Shown here: piece by piece, positions 3 through 14,594 of the stretch
Layout of the letters: each line of letters begins with the position of its first letter
Numbering within the stretch: position 1 is the stretch's first letter
From: a virus
Length of the DNA: 22,846 nt
Direction: 5' to 3' (one strand)
Virus record (IMG/VR): IMGVR_UViG_3300030106_005032
Location: 1 to 22,846 of that record
Made by a program: the position numbers and the translations under genes
The notes under the pieces: generated by a model
The model's input: only the letters and a program-made list of their open reading frames with translations
Told to the model about the DNA's origin: nothing
Databases searched by the model: none

Positions 3-3000
3 GAACTGGAAGTGTTGGACGCCCGGCTTAATGAGCTTGATCCTTCTATAAAGTTAGCGAAGGACAGAGCGGACTTAGGTCAGCAACAACAAGATTTAGA
101 AGCAATTCAAAACGCAGAGTTGTTTCCTGAGTTGGAAGGTGTTGAGACTACACTTGCAGGTATAGAAAGTGAATTAGCCGATCCAGATTCGCGCTCCGAC
201 ACACCTGTATTGTTGTTAAGAAAACAATTTGAACAACTCCGCAAGCAAGAGGACGCCGCCGATCTCACGGCACTAGAGGAACGCCTTGCAACCGCAGAGC
301 AAAGACAGGCGTTGCGTGGACTGCTTGACTTAGCACGAACTGAAGGTGGCATGCCTGCCTTAAGCCCAAGGCAAGTAAAGCGATATGTGCAAGACATACT
401 CTCAGGTGGAGTATTAGTTAGACCAACACCTGTACTGGAAATAGAAAGTCTTGTTGGCGAGCCTATTAAGAAACGCATACCTCGCCGCAAGGGCCGGGTG
501 GACCCAAGCAAACCGTTAACCAAAAGACAAGAGGCAGAACAACTTCATAGTTCTGTGCGAAACAGTTGGTTGTATGGAGACACTAGAACGCCAACACCCG
601 TTGCTCTTGACTCAGAACAAGCTGGTTTGGACGCTGCCGAAAAGGTCATCTATCACACACTAGGCATTGGATCTCTAATGGAGATAGCCGATGGTCTAGA
701 AAACAGTGGTGCCTACGACAAACCCGTTCCGGACAACTGGGTAGGGCCAAGCTTTGGACAGCTAGGCAAGGCTGAGTTTATCAACTTCAGAAAAAAGCTT
801 GAAAAAGCTAAGTATGAAATAACAGCAGAGCACATCTTTGAGTTGCTCAAACTAAAAGGAATCCCTGCACCTTTTGGTAACCTTGCAAACTTTGAAAAGT
901 CTCCGTTTTTTCGAGATCTTGTTTTTACTACTGTTGCAGACCCTGATACAGATCTGATAGCAGACGTAAAATGGAAAGACTTAGCTGAAGGCGAGAAGCA
1001 GGCTGTGCTTGCGCGGGTTCTTAACACACCCAGCCGGTTACGAGTTGACCAAGAAGGGGTGCTTACCTATACCGTTGGCAGGGTTGGGGATCCTGCGCTC
1101 AGAGATCAAGCCAAGCGCACCTTAGCAGGCTCAGTCGATGAGGTCGCTGTTCGCGTTGAAAGCGATTACAACGTCCGGATTGAAGGAAACTACGCAAGAA
1201 TTGATGACGGCCAGCTAGGTCCATTTAAAAGTGAACAACAGAAACTAGAACAGGCTGAAGGGTTAGAGGAAGCTCGCCAAAGGATTGAAAGATTTAAAAC
1301 GGCTGTAGAAAAACGTCTCAGGAAGATGAAAATAACAGCCATCCCTATGTTTACGGCCAATGTAGATGGGGTATACGCGCAGATTGAAGACGTGATTGCC
1401 AATGGTACGTTTGAGTACGAAACAGATCCTAATACTGGCCGAGTAAAACCTAAGTTAGATAGTAATGGCCGCGTAATCTATCGTCCGGGGTACGAAGACG
1501 GAGCCGTTGCATCACTGCGAAATCACGGCACTCGCATCATGTACAATATTTCCCAGATTGAAGCTAAGTACGGGAAAAATTGGGACACAAAGATGGACGA
1601 GATCGTCAGAGATCTTACCGTCCACGAGGGTGCGCACATTCACTTCCTCAGAGACTTGTTAACTGAGACAGAGCGAAAGTCTTTAGAAAAGTTTGGAAAG
1701 AAAGAAGGGTATGTGCCCGCGTCAGTTAGCCAAGAAGCGCACAATAAAAAGTTAACGTGGCGTCAGTATGTAAAAGAACTATACCCTGAACTTTCTGAAG
1801 CAGCCCTGACTGAGGAAACTTCAGTTCATATTCTAGAAGCGTTAGCATCAGGCAAGCTTGCGGCCAGCAAAACTGCTGGGATAATCGGAAAGATCAAACG
1901 CACCCAGCTAGGCATCTTTAGTGCAATATTCCAGAGTGCCGCAGAAGCAGACATAAACTCTGTAATGCAAGTCTTTGAAAGAACGCAGAATGTTGACTTA
2001 ATGAAGTCAAGACAAAAAAGAAAAGCAGATCAAAAAGGTTTAGCTTCTCTGCGTTTGGTTGAAAGGGCTGACCCAGAAGACCTAAGAGCTTTACGAAAAG
2101 CTGTTAAAGAAAACAATCAACAACAGATAGACGAAATATCTGACCGGATACTGTTAAAGAGGCAAGAGTTCTCTGACGAACGGTCACCAATGCAACGTCT
2201 GCAAGAGTCCTTAATGACGGAGCTACGGGCGCGGCGACAGATTGAGGGCAACCCGTCTAATGTTATTGAACCCATATTAAATGCTAAAGCTATTGAGGCT
2301 GGCGAAATTGATATAGACAGCCTTAACGCTTATTTCCGATTCAGAGATGGCAGAGAGCCTCCGTTTGTAATGCCTACGGGAGAAGCTGACAAACGATCTT
2401 GGAGAATAAAATTCCAGAAGTCACTGTTTGCTCTGAGTGGTAAAACAGTAGATATGTTAGACAACACAAAGTCTGACGGTGGCTATGTGGACACGGGCAC
2501 CTCAGCCGCAGAAGCTATCATAGAAAAGCTGGACGCACACAACGAGTATGTAAGCAAAAAAACAGGAAAGAAAGTACGGATAAAGACTGAAGAAGACTGG
2601 AAGGAGATGATGCAACAGAGTGGCAAGGAACGCTTTGTTACTCGCTTCTTCGATCAACGCATACCGATGTTGAAGTCGCAAATCAGAGAACGCAAGAGAC
2701 GCGCAGAACTGGCAAGCGAACTTGGTGATTACGAAAGCGCATTGCAGATGTTGTCAGATCAGGTAGCTATATCGGCGTGGAGGTGGGCCGATAACGCTAT
2801 GAACTTTGTGTCTATGATCGTAAGTCAGGGGCCATTGCAGTACAGCAACGGTGGTTTTGCTCTTAACAAAGAAGCTTACGGTAGAGAAGCAGCAGGCAGG
2901 GGCGACATACCAGTAAAAGCACTCAAAGATATTGAGGCACCCCTACTGCAAGTCGAACGAGGCCAAGAGATGGCTTCGCGCTACCTTAACGCGCTTCGTG

Positions 3001-5828
3001 TTCGAGACGTTAAAACAGAAGTTCACAAGGCTGAACTAGAGTTACAAGCGGCTGAGTTGGAATTTGAATTGCTTGGTGATCCGAATGCCGACAGAAGCAA
3101 GATTATAAAACAAAGAGCGATTGTTCAGGAGTGGCAAAGCCTGTACGAAAGAGCCAACCCTGTCGCAGGGTATGTAGAAGTTGACGGGGAAAGACGGCCT
3201 TATCGTTTGCTTCCAGAAAGAACAGTGGAGAACGAAAAGGGTGACACAATTATGGGTTACCCTGAAACAATAGAGTTTTTCCAAGAAGGCACAGACCAAG
3301 AGCATGAACTTGTGCGTGAGTTCGCAGAGGAGTGGGCTGACCTTAACGCTCACAATATTCAGTTTGCAGTTGATACTGGAATGCTTAGTCAGGATCGCGC
3401 TGACATCCTAAAGAACATGGCTTTTGTGCCGTTCTATCGGGATCAAGGCTATGACAACGACACGATGTTGTACAACCCTGACAACAGAACGGTGCAGGAA
3501 TCAAACCGTGAAGCAGCTAACGACGACCCGGTTCTTCGCGGACAGATTCTTCTGAACAAAGCTATTCAGGGAAGCGTTGCTCCGATAAGCAAAGATTTGT
3601 TTGCAAACTTAAGAGCCAACGTCTCAGGCATTGTCCGCGATGGCATGCGCAATGTAGCAATGACCCGAACTATTCGAGACGAGCTTAGAAACGGAACAGC
3701 CATAGAAGTCATAAGGCCAAGCCTGCAAGAGTTGAATCGCCAGAAGTTTGTTAACGAGCAAATAACAAAACTTAGAAAGAAAGGAGCAAGGAGAACCGCT
3801 CAAGAAGAAACCTTGTTTAACGACTTGCAGTTAGAAAAGATGGGCTTAGACGAGGTTATTGCAGAAAAACAAAAAGCATTTAAGAAGCAAGAAAGAGAGT
3901 TGAACCTAGCAGGGTTCTCATCAATAGAGGTCATGGTGCAGGGCGTTCAACCAGAAGCAATTATGCAACTTGATGAGAACGGAAACCCTGTGCATCAAGG
4001 TAGGCCGATGACAGAGCAGGGTGAAACAAAAATCTACCGTGTTGTGGACCCGGCTCTTTCTCAGGCCATGATGGATATTGGTTTTAGTCCAATGCAAGCC
4101 ATTGAAGATTTCTTTGGCAAGACTCTTGGTATAAGCCCTAAGATTTCTCACGGTCTAGCCAAGCTTCTGGTCGGATCCTCTAGGTTTCTTAGAGAGACTG
4201 TGACACGGTCGCCTCCCTTCATGTTAAAAAATATCATGAGGGATGCTATGCAGGCTTCTGTCATTTATGGCGGAAATCCGTTTGTGCTTGCCGGTAAAAT
4301 TATTAAGAACACCGTTACGCCCGGATTGGTTGAACAGGCTGAGGCTCGTGGGCTAGGTATTGCCGTAGACCAAGCATTCGATGAAGCAGATGGGCGCACC
4401 TCTGTGCGGGCAAACTGGGACAGTCAAATACCAATTGTTGGTTCCGTGTGGAACACGCTTGGACGAATGGGCAAGCAGTCAGAAGTTGCTACTCGCATGG
4501 CTGTGTACGACATGGCTCTGGCAAAAACAGATGGCAACGCGGCAGAAGCGTTAACACAAGCTATAGAGATTATGAACTATGGTCGCCGTGGATCAAGCCG
4601 AATGTTTGCAACCATAGCTGCTATGTCTCCATTCCTAAATGGTCGGATGCAGGGCTTAAGCGTTCTTGTAAGAAACCACTTGGGATCACTAGACTCGCCC
4701 GGCATTATGATGGGCGAAGATGGTATGGCTTTAGACCCAAAGGTGGAGAGCAAGTTAAGACGACAACAGGCTTTGATGCGTGGCAGCTTGATCATGCTGG
4801 CAACCCTAGGGTACTACCTCATGATGAGGGACGACGAAGAGTACAAGAACGCTCGTGAAGACACGAAGAATGATTGGTGGCTTATTCCGTTAGGGCGAGA
4901 CGAAGAAGGTAAGACGAGACTTGGTTTTAAAATACCAATACCGTTTGAGGTGGGTCTGATTTACAAGGTTATTCCTGAGCAAATGTTCAGGGCTATATCA
5001 GAAGAAGAACATGACTTTGTCGATGTAGGCAGCGAAGCGTTTAGGCAGTTAAAGAACACTTTGTTCATGGACATGCGTCCACAGCTAATACGTCCAATGC
5101 TTGACGCTATGAGTAACCGTGATGCATTCCAGCGTGACCAGATCGTGCCCTCGTGGATGGAGAACTCTGTCGCAGCAAGTGAACAGTACAATCCCTACAC
5201 CAACATGATGGCGAGGCTGATTGGCGACAAGCTAGAGAACATACCTGTCTTGAATAAGATGAGTGCTCTTACATCTCCCATGAAACTAGAGTACATGATG
5301 CGTCAGTACACTGGAACTATTGGTGCTTATGGAATGGCTATGGCTGATCGCGTTGCGCGTGAGGTTATGGATGAAAACATCGCTGGAACCTCTGCTGACT
5401 TTGGCTTCTCGCAAGACACATTCGCACAGATGCCTATGCTTGGCGACCTCTTTTATAGCACAGTAAAGGGTGGCGGCTACCAAGAAGACTTCTACGAAAC
5501 CATGGAGCAAATGGATCACTTGATTACGACCATGGGTCAAATTGAAGACAGTGAAGGCGGCGTAGCAGCGTTGCAGTATAAGGAAGAAAACATAGGCATG
5601 TTCCGTCACAAACGCCGCTTACAGTATTTCGACAGGCGCATGAAGCGTTACAGGGAACAAAGAGACAGAGTGTTTAACAGGCCAGACCTCAGCAAAGATG
5701 AGAAACGAAGGATGCTGCACAGAATGTTTGAGCAGCGTGACGACATGCTTTCAGACATGCTAAGGATCATGGCAGAAATAAGACGAGACCGAAGTGCAAC
5801 TGAACGATTGTTTGGAGTTGAACCGTAA
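3..5828 (+). CDS. Giant polyvalent virion-associated protein, 5'-truncated, with HExxH metallopeptidase motif and LPD38-like region
   Basis: The reading frame is open to the window edge. A GTG lies at 12, but the preceding codons continue the same charged helical pattern (E-L-E-V-L-D), so the true start is probably outside the window. Numbered from that GTG it has 1,938 residues. The first ~450 residues are charged and helical. Residues 538-542 read HEGAH, an HExxH zinc-peptidase motif, followed by an acidic helix that could supply a third ligand. Residues ~1380-1660 (SRFLRETVTRSPPFMLKN, then PFLNGRMQG and a hydrophobic stretch near 1586-1607) resemble the large polyvalent protein domain LPD38; this is from memory, not a search. 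The C-terminus is rich in Arg, Met and Asp. Such proteins are thought to be packaged in the virion and ejected with the DNA, so the peptidase may mature the particle or act on host targets. The stop overlaps the next ATG by one base. Confidence 0.85.
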   Translation, partial: ELEVLDARLNELDPSIKLAKDRADLGQQQQDLEAIQNAELFPELEGVETTLAGIESELADPDSRSDTPVLLLRKQFEQLRKQEDAADLTALEERLATAEQRQALRGLLDLARTEGGMPALSPRQVKRYVQDILSGGVLVRPTPVLEIESLVGEPIKKRIPRRKGRVDPSKPLTKRQEAEQLHSSVRNSWLYGDTRTPTPVALDSEQAGLDAAEKVIYHTLGIGSLMEIADGLENSGAYDKPVPDNWVGPSFGQLGKAEFINFRKKLEKAKYEITAEHIFELLKLKGIPAPFGNLANFEKSPFFRDLVFTTVADPDTDLIADVKWKDLAEGEKQAVLARVLNTPSRLRVDQEGVLTYTVGRVGDPALRDQAKRTLAGSVDEVAVRVESDYNVRIEGNYARIDDGQLGPFKSEQQKLEQAEGLEEARQRIERFKTAVEKRLRKMKITAIPMFTANVDGVYAQIEDVIANGTFEYETDPNTGRVKPKLDSNGRVIYRPGYEDGAVASLRNHGTRIMYNISQIEAKYGKNWDTKMDEIVRDLTVHEGAHIHFLRDLLTETERKSLEKFGKKEGYVPASVSQEAHNKKLTWRQYVKELYPELSEAALTEETSVHILEALASGKLAASKTAGIIGKIKRTQLGIFSAIFQSAAEADINSVMQVFERTQNVDLMKSRQKRKADQKGLASLRLVERADPEDLRALRKAVKENNQQQIDEISDRILLKRQEFSDERSPMQRLQESLMTELRARRQIEGNPSNVIEPILNAKAIEAGEIDIDSLNAYFRFRDGREPPFVMPTGEADKRSWRIKFQKSLFALSGKTVDMLDNTKSDGGYVDTGTSAAEAIIEKLDAHNEYVSKKTGKKVRIKTEEDWKEMMQQSGKERFVTRFFDQRIPMLKSQIRERKRRAELASELGDYESALQMLSDQVAISAWRWADNAMNFVSMIVSQGPLQYSNGGFALNKEAYGREAAGRGDIPVKALKDIEAPLLQVERGQEMASRYLNALRVRDVKTEVHKAELELQAAELEFELLGDPNADRSKIIKQRAIVQEWQSLYERANPVAGYVEVDGERRPYRLLPERTVENEKGDTIMGYPETIEFFQEGTDQEHELVREFAEEWADLNAHNIQFAVDTGMLSQDRADILKNMAFVPFYRDQGYDNDTMLYNPDNRTVQESNREAANDDPVLRGQILLNKAIQGSVAPISKDLFANLRANVSGIVRDGMRNVAMTRTIRDELRNGTAIEVIRPSLQELNRQKFVNEQITKLRKKGARRTAQEETLFNDLQLEKMGLDEVIAEKQKAFKKQERELNLAGFSSIEVMVQGVQPEAIMQLDENGNPVHQGRPMTEQGETKIYRVVDPALSQAMMDIGFSPMQAIEDFFGKTLGISPKISHGLAKLLVGSSRFLRETVTRSPPFMLKNIMRDAMQASVIYGGNPFVLAGKIIKNTVTPGLVEQAEARGLGIAVDQAFDEADGRTSVRANWDSQIPIVGSVWNTLGRMGKQSEVATRMAVYDMALAKTDGNAAEALTQAIEIMNYGRRGSSRMFATIAAMSPFLNGRMQGLSVLVRNHLGSLDSPGIMMGEDGMALDPKVESKLRRQQALMRGSLIMLATLGYYLMMRDDEEYKNAREDTKNDWWLIPLGRDEEGKTRLGFKIPIPFEVGLIYKVIPEQMFRAISEEEHDFVDVGSEAFRQLKNTLFMDMRPQLIRPMLDAMSNRDAFQRDQIVPSWMENSVAASEQYNPYTNMMARLIGDKLENIPVLNKMSALTSPMKLEYMMRQYTGTIGAYGMAMADRVAREVMDENIAGTSADFGFSQDTFAQMPMLGDLFYSTVKGGGYQEDFYETMEQMDHLITTMGQIEDSEGGVAALQYKEENIGMFRHKRRLQYFDRRMKRYREQRDRVFNRPDLSKDEKRRMLHRMFEQRDDMLSDMLRIMAEIRRDRSATERLFGVEP

Positions 5829-10159: not shown

Positions 10160-10185
10160 GGGGGCGGGGCCGGAGCCCCACCCCC
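10160..10185 (-). terminator. GC-rich hairpin after GHKL gene, UNCG-type tetraloop
   Basis: In the minus-strand RNA the arms GGGGGUGGGGC and GCCCCGCCCCC pair over 11 bp, including one U-G pair, around a UCCG loop closed by C-G, i.e. a cUNCGg tetraloop. On the plus strand the same site has a C-A mismatch, so the structure suits minus-strand RNA. It starts 8 bases after the GHKL stop codon. There is no U tract, so it may terminate weakly, stabilise RNA ends or attenuate expression of the next genes. Confidence 0.55.
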
Positions 10186-10193
10186 GGTAAATG

Positions 10194-11600
10194 TTAGATC
10201 GTTGGTTCGATCATGCGAAGGCGAGCACCTAAACGACAGCACTCATTGTAAAAACCACTAGTCAGGTGGTCACTCACCTTGAGATGAGCACACTCATGGA
10301 TGAGCAACTCATCGACCGCCTGCTGATTAGTGTACCGGAAGCGGGCAACATTCAACGTCACCGTAAGCCCGCCACAGCACCCAGCGTACTCAAGCCTCCG
10401 ATCAGACTCTAGCACCAAGGAGGCAGAGGAGTCGGCAATGACAGAGATGAACTTCTCTGCATACTCCCTAAGCCTCTTGATCTTAGGATCAGACTCGTTA
10501 GCCAGTTTCGGCTTAAACCCATTTGGGCTTGTCTTCACCATGCCCGTGTCGAACTTCACACTCGACGGAGACCATGCTCCTGATCTCTTGATCGTGCCCC
10601 ACGCCGCCTTCGAAAACTGTCTACCGTGGATCACGGCGTAGCCTGCATCGACAGCCCTCTTGTTCGACTCCGGAGTGTGAGGGTTGAAGATCACTGCGTC
10701 TCCAACCCGCTTGTCCAACACCTTGCGGACAGCTTCGTCATCCTCCATCCGCTCTAGGGCTGTGCCTATCCAACCGCCCTGTGCTTCCTCGTCAGTGATC
10801 TCGTCAGCAGTAATCTCTGCGACATAAGCCTCAAGCTGATTGAGGAAGCTTTGATTCACCGACGTGCGATCCATGGACAGAGGCACCTTCTGCATCACCT
10901 CGACATGGAAGGGCATCTCCACGGTGTCCACTGGGATCCCCATCTCGTACAGCGATGGCACCTCGCCATCCTTTGGACGGTAGACACGCACCTCAGTTTG
11001 ACGGCGCGTCCTGCGGAACCCACCCTCTTCGCCACGAATCTCAGTAGGCAGGGTCACCGTGCGCTTTGCAAAAGCATCACGGCCCTCAAGCTCTACCCCG
11101 TTGATCGTGGTGCGGACACCCTGCGGCGGGATCAAAGAGGTCGCGACCTTTAGCGACTCTTCAATCTCGTCTCTGGTCATGTCCACCATCGCTGTCAGTA
11201 TGCTACCTGCTTCAGTAGCCTTGGACGACCGACGCCGCCCCTTCTCACTGAACAGCACCGTGCCCGTCGTGCTCTGGATAGAAGCCTCTCTCGCAATAGA
11301 GAGCAGGAGCTTCTCACCCATGTTGAACCGACCACGCTTACTAGGATCGTCGAGCTTGTAGCTCTCCTTGTACAGCGTGTAGGCATCTGCTAGATCACGG
11401 AACCCGTCAGGCGAGTCGTCAGTAACAACGAGCTTTGCCAGACGTTTGTTAGGGACTGGCTCCAGCGTGAGTGTGACAACACCCACGTTCTCGTCCCACG
11501 CATTTTGAATCGGTTCGAGGACAAGGCGTTCAACGCCATGTCTCCTAGCGATTCCCGAAAGACCCTTACGGTCTACGGTAAACCAAGCGGGCGTACCCAT
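10194..11600 (-). CDS. GHKL (HSP90/MutL-type) ATPase fused to C-terminal HExxH metallopeptidase domain
   Basis: 468 residues. The N-terminal Bergerat ATP-binding fold is visible: an N box (E29-PIQN33-AWD36-E), a second motif TDDSPDGF (60-67) and a glycine-box-like segment GRFNMGEKLL (90-99). A middle region (~200-265) with short strands follows, as in other GHKL proteins. The C-terminal ~70 residues carry IHECAHLKVSDH: H435-E-x2-H439 with a further His at 445, the HExxHxxxxxH spacing seen in several zinc-peptidase groups, in a context like SprT/WLM/YgjP peptidases. The start has a GGGAGAA ribosome site, and a sigma70-like promoter lies at 11647-11675. An ATP-driven conformational switch controlling a peptidase is possible, but target and role are unknown. 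Confidence 0.85.
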   Translation of the reverse strand: MGTPAWFTVDRKGLSGIARRHGVERLVLEPIQNAWDENVGVVTLTLEPVPNKRLAKLVVTDDSPDGFRDLADAYTLYKESYKLDDPSKRGRFNMGEKLLLSIAREASIQSTTGTVLFSEKGRRRSSKATEAGSILTAMVDMTRDEIEESLKVATSLIPPQGVRTTINGVELEGRDAFAKRTVTLPTEIRGEEGGFRRTRRQTEVRVYRPKDGEVPSLYEMGIPVDTVEMPFHVEVMQKVPLSMDRTSVNQSFLNQLEAYVAEITADEITDEEAQGGWIGTALERMEDDEAVRKVLDKRVGDAVIFNPHTPESNKRAVDAGYAVIHGRQFSKAAWGTIKRSGAWSPSSVKFDTGMVKTSPNGFKPKLANESDPKIKRLREYAEKFISVIADSSASLVLESDRRLEYAGCCGGLTVTLNVARFRYTNQQAVDELLIHECAHLKVSDHLTSGFYNECCRLGARLRMIEPTI

Positions 11601-11646: not shown

Positions 11647-11675
11647 ATCGTAATATGATCATGTCACCCTGTCAA
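11647..11675 (-). promoter_or_regulatory. Sigma70-like promoter for GHKL-metallopeptidase gene
   Basis: On the minus strand TTGACA (11675-11670), a 17-base spacer and TACGAT (11652-11647) give a -35 match of 6/6 and a -10 match of 4/6. Transcription would start near 11640, about 40 bases before the GHKL ATG at 11600. The -35 overlaps or abuts the base of the preceding hairpin. The same -10 sequence and spacing recur at 12345-12373. Confidence 0.65.
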
Positions 11676-11712: not shown

Positions 11713-12084
11713 CTAAGTACGCGCAACCCGCTCAAACCAATGAGACGGTCCGGTACTGCGTTCGAGACGGTACGGCCAAGGCTTGCGCAGAGGCCAAGGG
11801 GTCTTCGACACAAAACTGCCGCTAGGGTACATCTGAAAATACTCGTCAAAGTTCTTCCCGTTTTCCGGCGAGATGACGTTGTCCATCTTCTCAAGGGTGA
11901 GATATCCCTTCCGCGTCAAACCATAGCCGCCGAACCTCGAAGCGACCTCAAAAATTAAATCCTTCTTGAGCAGCGCATTGATGGTACGCGGCAACGCCGT
12001 GTACTCCATCGCATTCGTGCCATGGTAGGCGTTTTCAATTTCACGCAACGCCTTATGCTGAACAGTGCTGACCTTAATTCCCAT
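11713..12084 (-). CDS. Putative winged-helix protein
   Basis: 123 residues, with a strong AAGGAG ribosome site just upstream. Residues 1-65 look like a winged helix: helix KALREIENAYHG, helix LPRTINALLKKDLI and a wing around FEVASRFGGYGLTRKGYLTL. The C-terminal half is aromatic and Pro-rich (FQMYPSGS, KTPWPLRKPWP) and unassigned. It is the second gene of a two-gene unit transcribed from the promoter at 12345-12373 and ends just before a GC hairpin. It is probably DNA-binding; whether it regulates phage or host genes is unknown. Confidence 0.62.
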   Translation of the reverse strand: MGIKVSTVQHKALREIENAYHGTNAMEYTALPRTINALLKKDLIFEVASRFGGYGLTRKGYLTLEKMDNVISPENGKNFDEYFQMYPSGSFVSKTPWPLRKPWPYRLERSTGPSHWFERVART

Positions 12085-12344: not shown

Positions 12345-12373
12345 ATCGTATAGTCGTATGGTTGTCGAGTCAA
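12345..12373 (-). promoter_or_regulatory. Sigma70-like promoter for 12291-11713 unit
   Basis: On the minus strand TTGACT (12373-12368), 17 bases and TACGAT (12350-12345). Transcription would start near 12338, ~47 bases before the 59-residue gene. The context CCCCCTTGAC and the -10 TACGAT are the same as in the promoter at 11647-11675. Confidence 0.6.
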
Positions 12374-12378
12374 GGGGG

Positions 12379-14130
12379 TTAGAAATCCCACCTGCCATCA
12401 TCAACCTCTTCGGTAATGAAATCAGTCCACCTTCCAGTAGCTTTGTCGAACTCCAACTGGCAGTGTCCATTCTTGCCGATCCAGCCCCACCGCACCTTCC
12501 AGACATGACACTCCGGTGGCTCTAGGTCTTGGGGGTGTCGCCATGCAGTGATGCCTAGGTCAGCCTTAGCGAACCACGCCGCTGACCCTGCAATGTCGTG
12601 CCCAGTGATCAGCACTTTCTTCTCTGACCTACGGTCAGGTGAGACCTTGGTAGGGTGAGCTATGAAAAAGACGTGCACATCATGAGACTTAGCCCACTTC
12701 TGTATCTGCGTCAGCATCTTGCTAATCGCATCTGTTTCGCGGTCACTCTTTGGTAGCTCAATAAAATTGTAAGGATCAATCACCAAGAGCCTGCAACCAA
12801 GCTGCATCACTGCGGCTGAGGCCGTATCTAAGATCCCCTCTATGGTCGTTGGTCCATCTAGTGAGTGGTCCATAAACAAGAAGTGATCGTCAATGTACTC
12901 GTATGCGTAGTCCTTTTTGGAGCACTCCATCCTAGTAGAAGGGCCTTCAAAGAATGGCTGGTTCATTAGCTTCTGCGCTAACTGCGCCATGTGCAGGGCG
13001 GGTGGCTTCTCGAATGAACAGTAGACTGTCTTGAGACCTTCCTGCCTAGCCAGATTCAAACAGATCTGGTCAATCAAATCACTCTTACCTGACGACGGGA
13101 AGCCGGTTACTACAGTCATCATGCCCGGCACGATCTGGATAAGCTGATCCAAGGATCTCAAACCAGTAGAGCTACCACTAATCTGTCCCTCTTCGTACAG
13201 AATATCGTATTCTTTTTTAAAGTCCCTAGCTCTATGCAATCCCACGGTCGGAAACGGATCACACACCTCCAGTTGTCCAAGCAAGTAAGAGGCTCCCTTT
13301 AGTTGTAACGCCTCTGAGGTGTCCTTGCATTCCCCTAGGTCTAGAGTCCAGAGCCTGCTCGTGCCGACACGTCTCTTGATCTCTTCCTCTAACGCACCGC
13401 CAGCCTCATCATTGTCAAAGCAAAGAATAATTCTCTTAGCACTTTCGAGTTGATCTTTAGCTCGCCAGACATACTGAAACTTCTTGTCTTCACGGGGGTC
13501 AACCTTGCCATCTTTAACCTTCGAGGGTGCCCCATTAGGGATGCTCATCACCGTCAGGTTATCTGGGAGATCGCACGACATCCACGACAGGGCGTCCATC
13601 TCACCCTCAACCAGCAGTATGTCGTTACCCTTCTTGTAGTTATGAAGATTGTAGAAGTCTTCGCAAACATTCTGTTGGCTGTAGTACTTGTTAGCACCTG
13701 CGCTCCGCCACTTAATGGCAGTAACCCCATGGCTGTCTTTGTACACAAAGCCTACCGCAGGCACAGCTTTCCCATTGAATGTGTAGGTGCCCTGAATCGT
13801 GTGCTCATCCATGACACCTTCTGAAATCTTGCGACTTAGTAGGTAGTCCTTTGCTATCTCGTTAGGCTCAGACTGCTTCGGTAGCGTAATGGTTTTTCGT
13901 TCTCGCATCTGCGGACTGAACCCGTTTGTTTTGTGCATCCACCCTCCACTGGTGTCACAGTGATGACAGTGGTATCTGACACCGTCAGAATCCACCTTAA
14001 TTGATAGCGATTTGTCGTGCTTGTTCTTAGACCTAGTGTGGTGGCAGGCCGGACATTTCCGTTTGTGTTGCCCAATAGACAACCTCTCCCCTAGAAGTTG
14101 GATGTCACTAGGAACGTCTGCTTTTAACAT
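12379..14130 (-). CDS. T7 gp4-like DNA primase-helicase
   Basis: 583 residues. This bifunctional enzyme would prime lagging-strand synthesis and unwind the fork. Domains in order: a zinc-binding primase finger with C26-x2-C29 and C55-x2-C58 (CPACHHTR ... CHHCDTSG); a TOPRIM domain with LLVEGEMDAL (E175) and CFDNDEAG (D239, D241); and a RecA-like hexameric helicase domain with Walker A GFPSSGKS (343-350), Walker B LLVIDPYN (448-455) and the FFIAHP motif (488-493). The order and length match the T7 gp4/Twinkle family. The ATG at 14130 has no strong ribosome site in view, and a 10-base gap separates it from the RusA stop, so the two are probably co-transcribed. Its stop codon abuts the next promoter's CCCCC/TTGACT. 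Confidence 0.93.
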   Translation of the reverse strand: MLKADVPSDIQLLGERLSIGQHKRKCPACHHTRSKNKHDKSLSIKVDSDGVRYHCHHCDTSGGWMHKTNGFSPQMRERKTITLPKQSEPNEIAKDYLLSRKISEGVMDEHTIQGTYTFNGKAVPAVGFVYKDSHGVTAIKWRSAGANKYYSQQNVCEDFYNLHNYKKGNDILLVEGEMDALSWMSCDLPDNLTVMSIPNGAPSKVKDGKVDPREDKKFQYVWRAKDQLESAKRIILCFDNDEAGGALEEEIKRRVGTSRLWTLDLGECKDTSEALQLKGASYLLGQLEVCDPFPTVGLHRARDFKKEYDILYEEGQISGSSTGLRSLDQLIQIVPGMMTVVTGFPSSGKSDLIDQICLNLARQEGLKTVYCSFEKPPALHMAQLAQKLMNQPFFEGPSTRMECSKKDYAYEYIDDHFLFMDHSLDGPTTIEGILDTASAAVMQLGCRLLVIDPYNFIELPKSDRETDAISKMLTQIQKWAKSHDVHVFFIAHPTKVSPDRRSEKKVLITGHDIAGSAAWFAKADLGITAWRHPQDLEPPECHVWKVRWGWIGKNGHCQLEFDKATGRWTDFITEEVDDGRWDF

Positions 14131-14140
14131 GCCCTGCCTT

Positions 14141-14566
14141 TTAAACTAGTTTACTAAGAGTACTTATAATCTCATCTTGTTTTTCTACTGGTCCTACTAG
14201 TAAAACAGTTCTAGGGTTTTCTTTATCTAGACCATGCAAAACATATTTCATTTTGATTGATCTATCATTCTTGTAGATCTTGTCTTGAAGCAGATCTAGT
14301 ATCAGGCTTTCATCAAGATCTGGTCTCCTAGTGCAATAGTAAATTTTCATAGCAATAGCGAGATCACCCTCTAACAAATCCTCTAGCACTGGGCACTGCA
14401 AATCGACAGCCTTCTTGTACAGAAGAGCCTTCTTCGATTTAATAAACCGGGGCTTGCCACCAATCGAAACCAAGCGTCTTGAGTTTGCTTTCGAGGCTGG
14501 TTCTCCCTTGATCGTGAGAGCGATGATATCTCTGTCGCACCCCTTGCGCAATACTTGTTGGGTCAT
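14141..14566 (-). CDS. RusA-like Holliday junction resolvase
   Basis: 141 residues from the ATG at 14566, preferred over the one at 14572 because AAAGG is then at normal spacing. RusA features are present: IKGEPASKANSR near the N-terminus, then the acidic motif RPDLDES (81-87) with D83 and D85, and KNDR (99-102) with D101. RusA cuts four-way DNA junctions in replication or recombination intermediates. The lysine that follows the DLD motif in E. coli RusA (K76) is replaced by a hydrophobic residue here, so activity may differ slightly. It lies directly upstream of the primase-helicase gene and behind its own promoter at 14595-14623. Confidence 0.88.
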   Translation of the reverse strand: MTQQVLRKGCDRDIIALTIKGEPASKANSRRLVSIGGKPRFIKSKKALLYKKAVDLQCPVLEDLLEGDLAIAMKIYYCTRRPDLDESLILDLLQDKIYKNDRSIKMKYVLHGLDKENPRTVLLVGPVEKQDEIISTLSKLV

Positions 14567-14594
14567 TACCATCCTTTCGTCTGTCGGGACGAGG

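Follow-up and report, generated by a model that had tools for sequence, protein, structure and literature searches.

The DNA described here is IMG/VR virus record IMGVR_UViG_3300030106_005032, positions 1 to 22,846, and this entire stretch of 22,846 bases is referred to as the window. Located on its minus strand, from 10194 to 11600, is an open reading frame for a 468-residue protein, beginning with an ATG at 11600, ending with a TAA stop codon at 10196-10194, and directly preceded by a Shine-Dalgarno-like GGGAG. The encoded polypeptide, for which more than 100 homologues were found, is a GHKL/Hsp90-like ATPase joined to a zincin. An initial annotation of this DNA had placed a 468-residue fusion of a GHKL ATPase and a zinc peptidase at precisely these boundaries, leaving the strand unstated, and its pairing of the two domains in one chain is borne out by a Bergerat/Hsp90 N-terminal plus middle domain model, a zincin-like fold, and conserved predicted catalytic residues. 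The domain architecture is nearly certain. The fusion is real and widespread, occurring in jumbo and smaller phages, plasmids, and contigs of metagenome-assembled genomes (MAGs), and none of the family libraries that were searched gives it a name.

The region from about residue 7 to residue 150 (11151-11582; all features of the gene lie on the minus strand) is a Bergerat-fold ATPase domain, as judged by the AlphaFold2 model, by Foldseek matches to Hsp90 and TRAP1, and by Pfam, in which HATPase_c_3 matches 66 and HATPase_c 39 of 93 family members. These 93 members were used for the profile-library scans and the AlphaFold2 alignment, and a 116-sequence alignment for the residue counts. The N-box, EPIQNAWD (residues 29-36, 11493-11516), which forms part of the longer stretch EPIQNAWDEN (residues 29-38), provides E29 as the putative catalytic base, N33 for Mg2+, and D36. 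The G1 box, DDSPDGF (residues 61-67, 11400-11420), is a DxPxG variant of DxGxG, and the lid, or G2 box, is RGRFNMGEK (residues 89-97, 11310-11336). All three boxes, which define a GHKL ATPase, are therefore present on a Bergerat fold in both sequence and model. Next in the chain is an Hsp90-type middle, or transducer, domain (about residues 160-265, 10806-11123), identified by a Foldseek match spanning the N-terminal and middle domains of Hsp90. It contains the loop QKVPLSMDR (residues 237-245, 10866-10892). We infer that this QKxPLxxDR loop is the counterpart of PLNxSRE, the catalytic loop of the Hsp90 middle domain, with R245 corresponding to R380 of yeast Hsp90. An α/β linker domain, delineated by the secondary structure of the model (about residues 266-350, 10551-10805), leads into the C-terminal zincin domain (about residues 361-468, 10197-10520), where the zinc motif HECAHLKVSDH, of the form HExxHxxxxxH, is found at residues 435-445 (10266-10298). 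The motifs listed in the initial annotation, with GRFNMGEK corresponding to residues 90-97, are thus all present, and they are backed by conservation in 116 homologues.

The AlphaFold2 model of the full-length protein, calculated with the 93-sequence alignment, has a predicted local distance difference test score (pLDDT) of 93 and a predicted template-modeling score of 0.85. In a Foldseek search of the PDB with this model, more than 40 Hsp90/TRAP1 chains dominate the matches (best E-value 3.7e-14), and DNA-bound MORC2 follows; the fusion protein therefore combines a Bergerat domain with a middle domain of the Hsp90 type. The template-modeling (TM) scores of the full-length matches are modest, ~0.4, because the domains are arranged differently and the C-terminal parts are not related. 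A sequence search of the PDB gave weak matches only (myroilysin, MutL, sacsin, and Wss1), and a direct profile alignment of the family with HtpG alone was likewise weak (p 0.007), such that the structure search was needed. With respect to the HSP90/MutL-type ATP site originally proposed, the GHKL assignment stands, and the resemblance can be refined to a specifically Hsp90-like one comprising the N-terminal and middle domains. The C-terminal dimerization domain of Hsp90 is absent. Since the C-terminal part is instead a zincin, the protein is Hsp90-like rather than a member of the Hsp90 family.

When modeled alone, the C-terminal domain has a pLDDT of 93 and consists of a helix, three strands, the HExxH helix, and a last helix. 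Abylysin, jannalysin, and selecase head its Foldseek matches, with probabilities of 0.99-1.00 and E-values of 0.008-0.11. BepA and Wss1 are also found, the latter with TM-scores of 0.67/0.63 and thus the best PDB match by that measure. On the basis of these matches and the conserved residues, a minimal zincin fold with an HExxH helix and a third ligand is predicted. The HExxHxxxxxH spacing is that of the Wss1/WLM peptidases. The structure prediction of each half that the initial annotation had suggested thus revealed a Bergerat fold in one and a resemblance to minimal zincins and Wss1 in the other.

Invariant in all 116 sequences are N33, D36, D61, G66, K82, R89, G90, G95, E96, K97, R122, R200, E219, G221, Q237, and R245; position 29 is always Glu or Asp and position 238 always Lys or Arg. 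H435, E436, and H439, whose loss in homologues had been named beforehand as counting against the idea, are conserved in 112-113 of the 116 members, and H445 in 109. Most of those without the zinc residues have truncated or damaged frames or run off the end of a contig: in one (L084) the missing end lies at the opposite end of the contig, and in another (L115) the HExxH motif is present in a different reading frame. In an alignment of the C-terminal domain from 85 sequences, which omits rows with damaged ends and the most divergent cellular rows, all four residues are invariant. Against the closest relative (L002), the ratio of nonsynonymous to synonymous substitution rates (dN/dS) is 0.14 overall, with 0.11 and 0.19 for the two halves, the higher value belonging to the C-terminal domain; as judged from this comparison, both halves are under purifying selection. 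When the protein was shuffled 20,000 times, HExxHxxxxxH appeared once, and the motifs are far beyond chance because they are conserved across homologues. A chance motif or a wrong frame is ruled out by the conservation, the dN/dS values, and the shuffle test. Given that the ATP-site and zinc residues are retained across a very diverse family, both putative activities look to be maintained together.

A scan with the single protein identified four viral relatives. With an alignment of five sequences, the search for the same fusion in other phages, as the initial annotation had advised, yielded 147 relatives in IMG/VR viral contigs, of which 80 were kept, and 33 in GTDB bacterial and archaeal genome contigs. 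These counts are lower bounds because the scan requires exact short peptides. Using tblastn, three full-length plasmid copies, distant Picosynechococcus copies, and a copy in LR745208, a 485-kb uncultured phage, were added. One distant GHKL protein, on a Picosynechococcus plasmid (L121:7390-9539), carries HExxHxxxxHH and lies directly behind a diadenylate-cyclase gene (DAC, E 1e-30) with CHAT-domain genes near; the two may form a signaling or defence pair. Of the 42 contigs searched, 41 carry the gene once, and the remaining contig shows a weak extra fragment match. In the tree, cellular and viral sequences are interspersed, and the window gene pairs with L002, then with the MAG contigs L104 and L085, L012, and L006. 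Around the near-identical fusion genes of L085 (PBFD01000007.1, 395 kb, binned as Gemmatimonadota) and L104 (binned as Euryarchaeota) lie about nine related phage-like genes. This common context suggests that both are misbinned virus, and the 395-kb contig is probably a jumbo phage.

Among the 80 viral contigs that were kept, 12 reach a length of 200 kb or more. Together with the Hsp90-like fold and the other chaperone-peptidase pairs that a jumbo-phage review describes, such as the MoxR-vWA-metallopeptidase pair (PMC7824862), this is consistent with a chaperone-protease for virion assembly or maturation. We consider such a role quite improbable, for the gene lies among replication rather than structural genes in the window and its close relatives, and immediate neighbors are rarely structural (a head scaffold in 2 of 142).

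The window protein has no match above cut-off in Pfam, PHROG, NCBIfam, or PADLOC, and its membership in a named family was rejected on these grounds; among known anti-phage defence systems, no PADLOC model matched. In keeping with the original statement that the pairing belongs to no named system, a search of a paper library without subscription papers or preprints produced no description of a GHKL-zincin fusion. The only paper found with both terms is the same jumbo-phage review (PMC7824862), in which rIIA is a GHKL protein with a variable C-terminus, solo SprT-like and ArdC-like zincins are treated as host-directed factors, and no fusion of the two was met in the main-text passages found. 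A survey of polyvalent proteins (PMC5512222) reports zincins as their commonest peptidase and does not mention GHKL.

These precedents raise the question of whether the protein might be an rIIA-type counter-defence factor, that is, a GHKL ATPase whose variable C-terminal effector, here a zincin, blocks exclusion or abortive infection, possibly without proteolysis. The viral Foldseek matches include several RIIA proteins, an alignment with T4 rIIA pairs the right motifs (p 0.0013), and a search of 12 large fusion-bearing contigs for T4-type rIIA found none. None of the 93 members matches a PHROG RIIA family, however, although T4 rIIA itself matches seven lysis-class rII families; no rIIB partner was seen, and the fully conserved zinc site argues for catalysis. 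On balance, we judge this explanation to be improbable.

The gene appears to have its own signals. A σ70-like promoter, TTGACA-N17-TACGAT, located by pattern scan at 11647-11675 on the minus strand, lies 46 bases upstream of the ATG and at the same position in L002. A second exact site, TTGACT-17-TACGAT, is found at 12345-12373 (minus strand). These are the two exact TTGACW-17-TACGWT sites in the window, each on the minus strand ahead of a gene; with one mismatch permitted there are four matches versus 0.25 expected. Such sites are perhaps an early promoter of the source phage. The earlier claim of an own promoter is reasonable given the second exact site and the conservation in L002. The claimed hairpin fares less simply. 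A strong GC hairpin does lie directly 3' of the stop codon (10160-10185, minus strand; ΔG -32, z -4.3) and recurs in L002. The terminator scan did not call it, however, and as it has no T-run, it is at best a candidate terminator.

Preceding the fusion gene on the same strand are genes for a RusA-like resolvase (14141-14572) and a primase-helicase (12379-14130), followed by a small gene (11713-12084) whose product weakly resembles winged-helix proteins. This small gene is absent from L002 (94% identical), where RusA is again nearby and the fusion gene comes directly after the primase-helicase. In L104 and L012 the neighbors are an exonuclease and a helicase. The location in a replication/recombination module points to early expression in the window clade, and it is confined to close relatives of the window gene; a family-wide link to the replication module was rejected, the DnaB positions being scattered. 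No conserved operon partner emerged from Pfam and PHROG scans of 142 neighbors, the most recurrent being sister GHKL families (three each), nor from strand and distance; in a clustering of neighbors, every other gene cluster was limited to at most 8 of the 117 loci. Without such a partner, the protein probably works by itself or as a homo-oligomer. In a 485-kb phage, the gene immediately after the fusion gene (L003:9470-10498) encodes an RNA ligase-like protein whose fused N-terminal region is HNH-like, and an RNA_ligase/phrog_24030 match occurs among the scanned neighbors. Elsewhere in the window, at 3-5828 on the plus strand, a 1941-residue LPD38 polyvalent-type protein has an HExxH of its own (VHEGAHIHF, with HEGAH at about 1623), possibly a processing zincin.

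The setting of the window clade among primase-helicase, exonuclease, and resolvase genes would suit DNA-linked protein repair, in which the GHKL half serves as a MutL/MORC-type DNA clamp and a Wss1/WLM-like peptidase cleaves proteins that block phage DNA or have become crosslinked to it. The TM-score and motif spacing of Wss1 and the DNA-bound MORC2 match noted above favor this function. Yet the protein has no recognizable DNA-binding domain and is slightly acidic (isoelectric point 6.3), the linkage to replication genes is not family-wide, and Hsp90 is clearly a better fit than MORC or MutL. We therefore regard repair as unlikely.

Neighboring genes of some relatives encode two further phage families with the same GHKL-middle-α/β-zincin order. 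Family II (phrog_6077-like, ~450 residues) comprises 16 viral loci (L150-L165, e.g. L024:6067-7380 and L014:5519-6862, both on the plus strand) and sometimes adjoins the window-family gene. GHKL and HExxH are both present in 15 of the 16, the zinc site being HExxH with a downstream DG...H, and its profile and that of the window family can be aligned from end to end (p 1.8e-11). Family III (phrog_8203-like, ~480 residues) comprises 26 viral loci (L124-L149, e.g. L035:9762-11204 and L070:6451-7953, both on the plus strand). In all 24 examined, the G1 and G2 boxes are N-terminal and the N-box, RExxxNxxD, comes after them, so that the ATPase is apparently circularly permuted. Indeed, once the profile was un-permuted, it scored 174.1 against family II where it had scored 144.8 before, and the p-value against the window family changed from 4e-8 to 8.8e-11. 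The N-box segment of family II alone aligned with the displaced family III segment at p 2.6e-7, versus 0.12 and 0.03 for control segments. With these sister families beside the window family, phages hold a superfamily of GHKL-zincin proteins. Note that 23 of the 24 family III proteins have EExxH and, downstream of it, an Asp at their C-terminal site, a glutamate replacing the first zinc histidine. That the domain is kept despite this change would fit an ATP-driven binding switch in which the zincin holds metal or peptide without cutting. For the window family, where the three histidines and the glutamate are invariant in 85 sequences, we give this idea very little credence.

We propose, with roughly even confidence, that the fusion serves the phage as a cytosolic protease acting on its own, with an Hsp90-like ATPase clamp for a motor and a host protein, perhaps a defence protein, as its target. 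The clamp, built of the Bergerat and middle/transducer domains, would be joined through the small α/β linker to a minimal zinc metallopeptidase. ATP binding would make the clamp, which is probably dimeric, close around a single protein substrate; the closed clamp would present that substrate to the HExxHxxxxxH peptidase or switch the peptidase on; and ATP hydrolysis would reset it. In the source phage, the protein would be produced alongside those of the replication genes and would cleave or inactivate its host target. ATP-driven closure on a client is suggested by the Hsp90-type N-terminal and middle domains, cleavage by the invariant zinc site, and the working together of the two halves by their strict co-conservation. 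The ATPase and peptidase activities, their coupling, and the dimerization are presumed, as was the ATP-gated peptidase of the initial annotation. The host or defence target is a guess, one already made in the initial annotation, and no neighbor or partner gene supports any specific one.

Several observations weigh against this protease model. The C-terminal domain, which is small, has no Foldseek match with an E-value below 0.001. It also falls below the Pfam cut-offs for WLM, SprT, and YgjP, the window protein scoring 11.8-11.9 bits versus 25.6-26 (best E-value among the 93 members, 0.0039). DnaB is over cut-off in 11 of 42 contigs and lies 0.6 to about 50 kb or more from the fusion gene, and the neighborhoods, as scanned with PADLOC, Pfam, and PHROG, name neither a target nor a defence role.

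More tentatively, the three related families, one with a permuted ATPase, may constitute a new, mainly phage-borne class of ATP-dependent protease in which an Hsp90-type GHKL clamp captures the substrate and gates a built-in zinc peptidase. If so, it could mark the first case of proteolysis powered by an Hsp90-type clamp in place of an AAA+ ring. The fusion also offers a defined single-gene object for the long-open question of what part rIIA and other GHKL proteins play in the conflict between phage and host.

Comparison with known systems places the fusion closest in its N-terminal part to Hsp90, TRAP1, and HtpG, with which it shares the Bergerat domain followed by the middle domain, the Glu/Asn/Asp of the N-box, the equivalents of D61 and G66, and an invariant arginine in a PLNxxR-like loop. 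It differs in overall sequence, which is unrelated (about 12% identity), in its DxPxG version of the G1 box, and in having a zincin where Hsp90 has its dimerization domain. Like T4 rIIA-type proteins, it adds a further domain to the C-terminus of a phage GHKL ATPase, and the two are linked by structural matches and a weak motif-level alignment; unlike the 725-residue rIIA, it contains 468 residues, ends in a zincin, leaves RIIA profiles unmatched, and is accompanied by no visible rIIB partner. The zincin itself has the fold order of WLM/Wss1, SprT, YgjP, and the minigluzincins abylysin and selecase, and shares HExxHxxxxxH with Wss1, but it lies below the Pfam cut-offs and in the same chain as an ATPase. 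The phrog_6077 and phrog_8203 proteins, of unknown function, have the same domain order and differ in the HExxH with downstream Asp/His of the former and the permuted GHKL domain and EExxH of the latter. Well-known ATP-dependent proteases use P-loop (AAA+) motors. As a working analogy, the fusion resembles FtsH, Lon, and Clp in uniting an ATPase and a peptidase in one machine, whereas its motor is a GHKL clamp, from an ATPase superfamily other than that of the P-loop ring.
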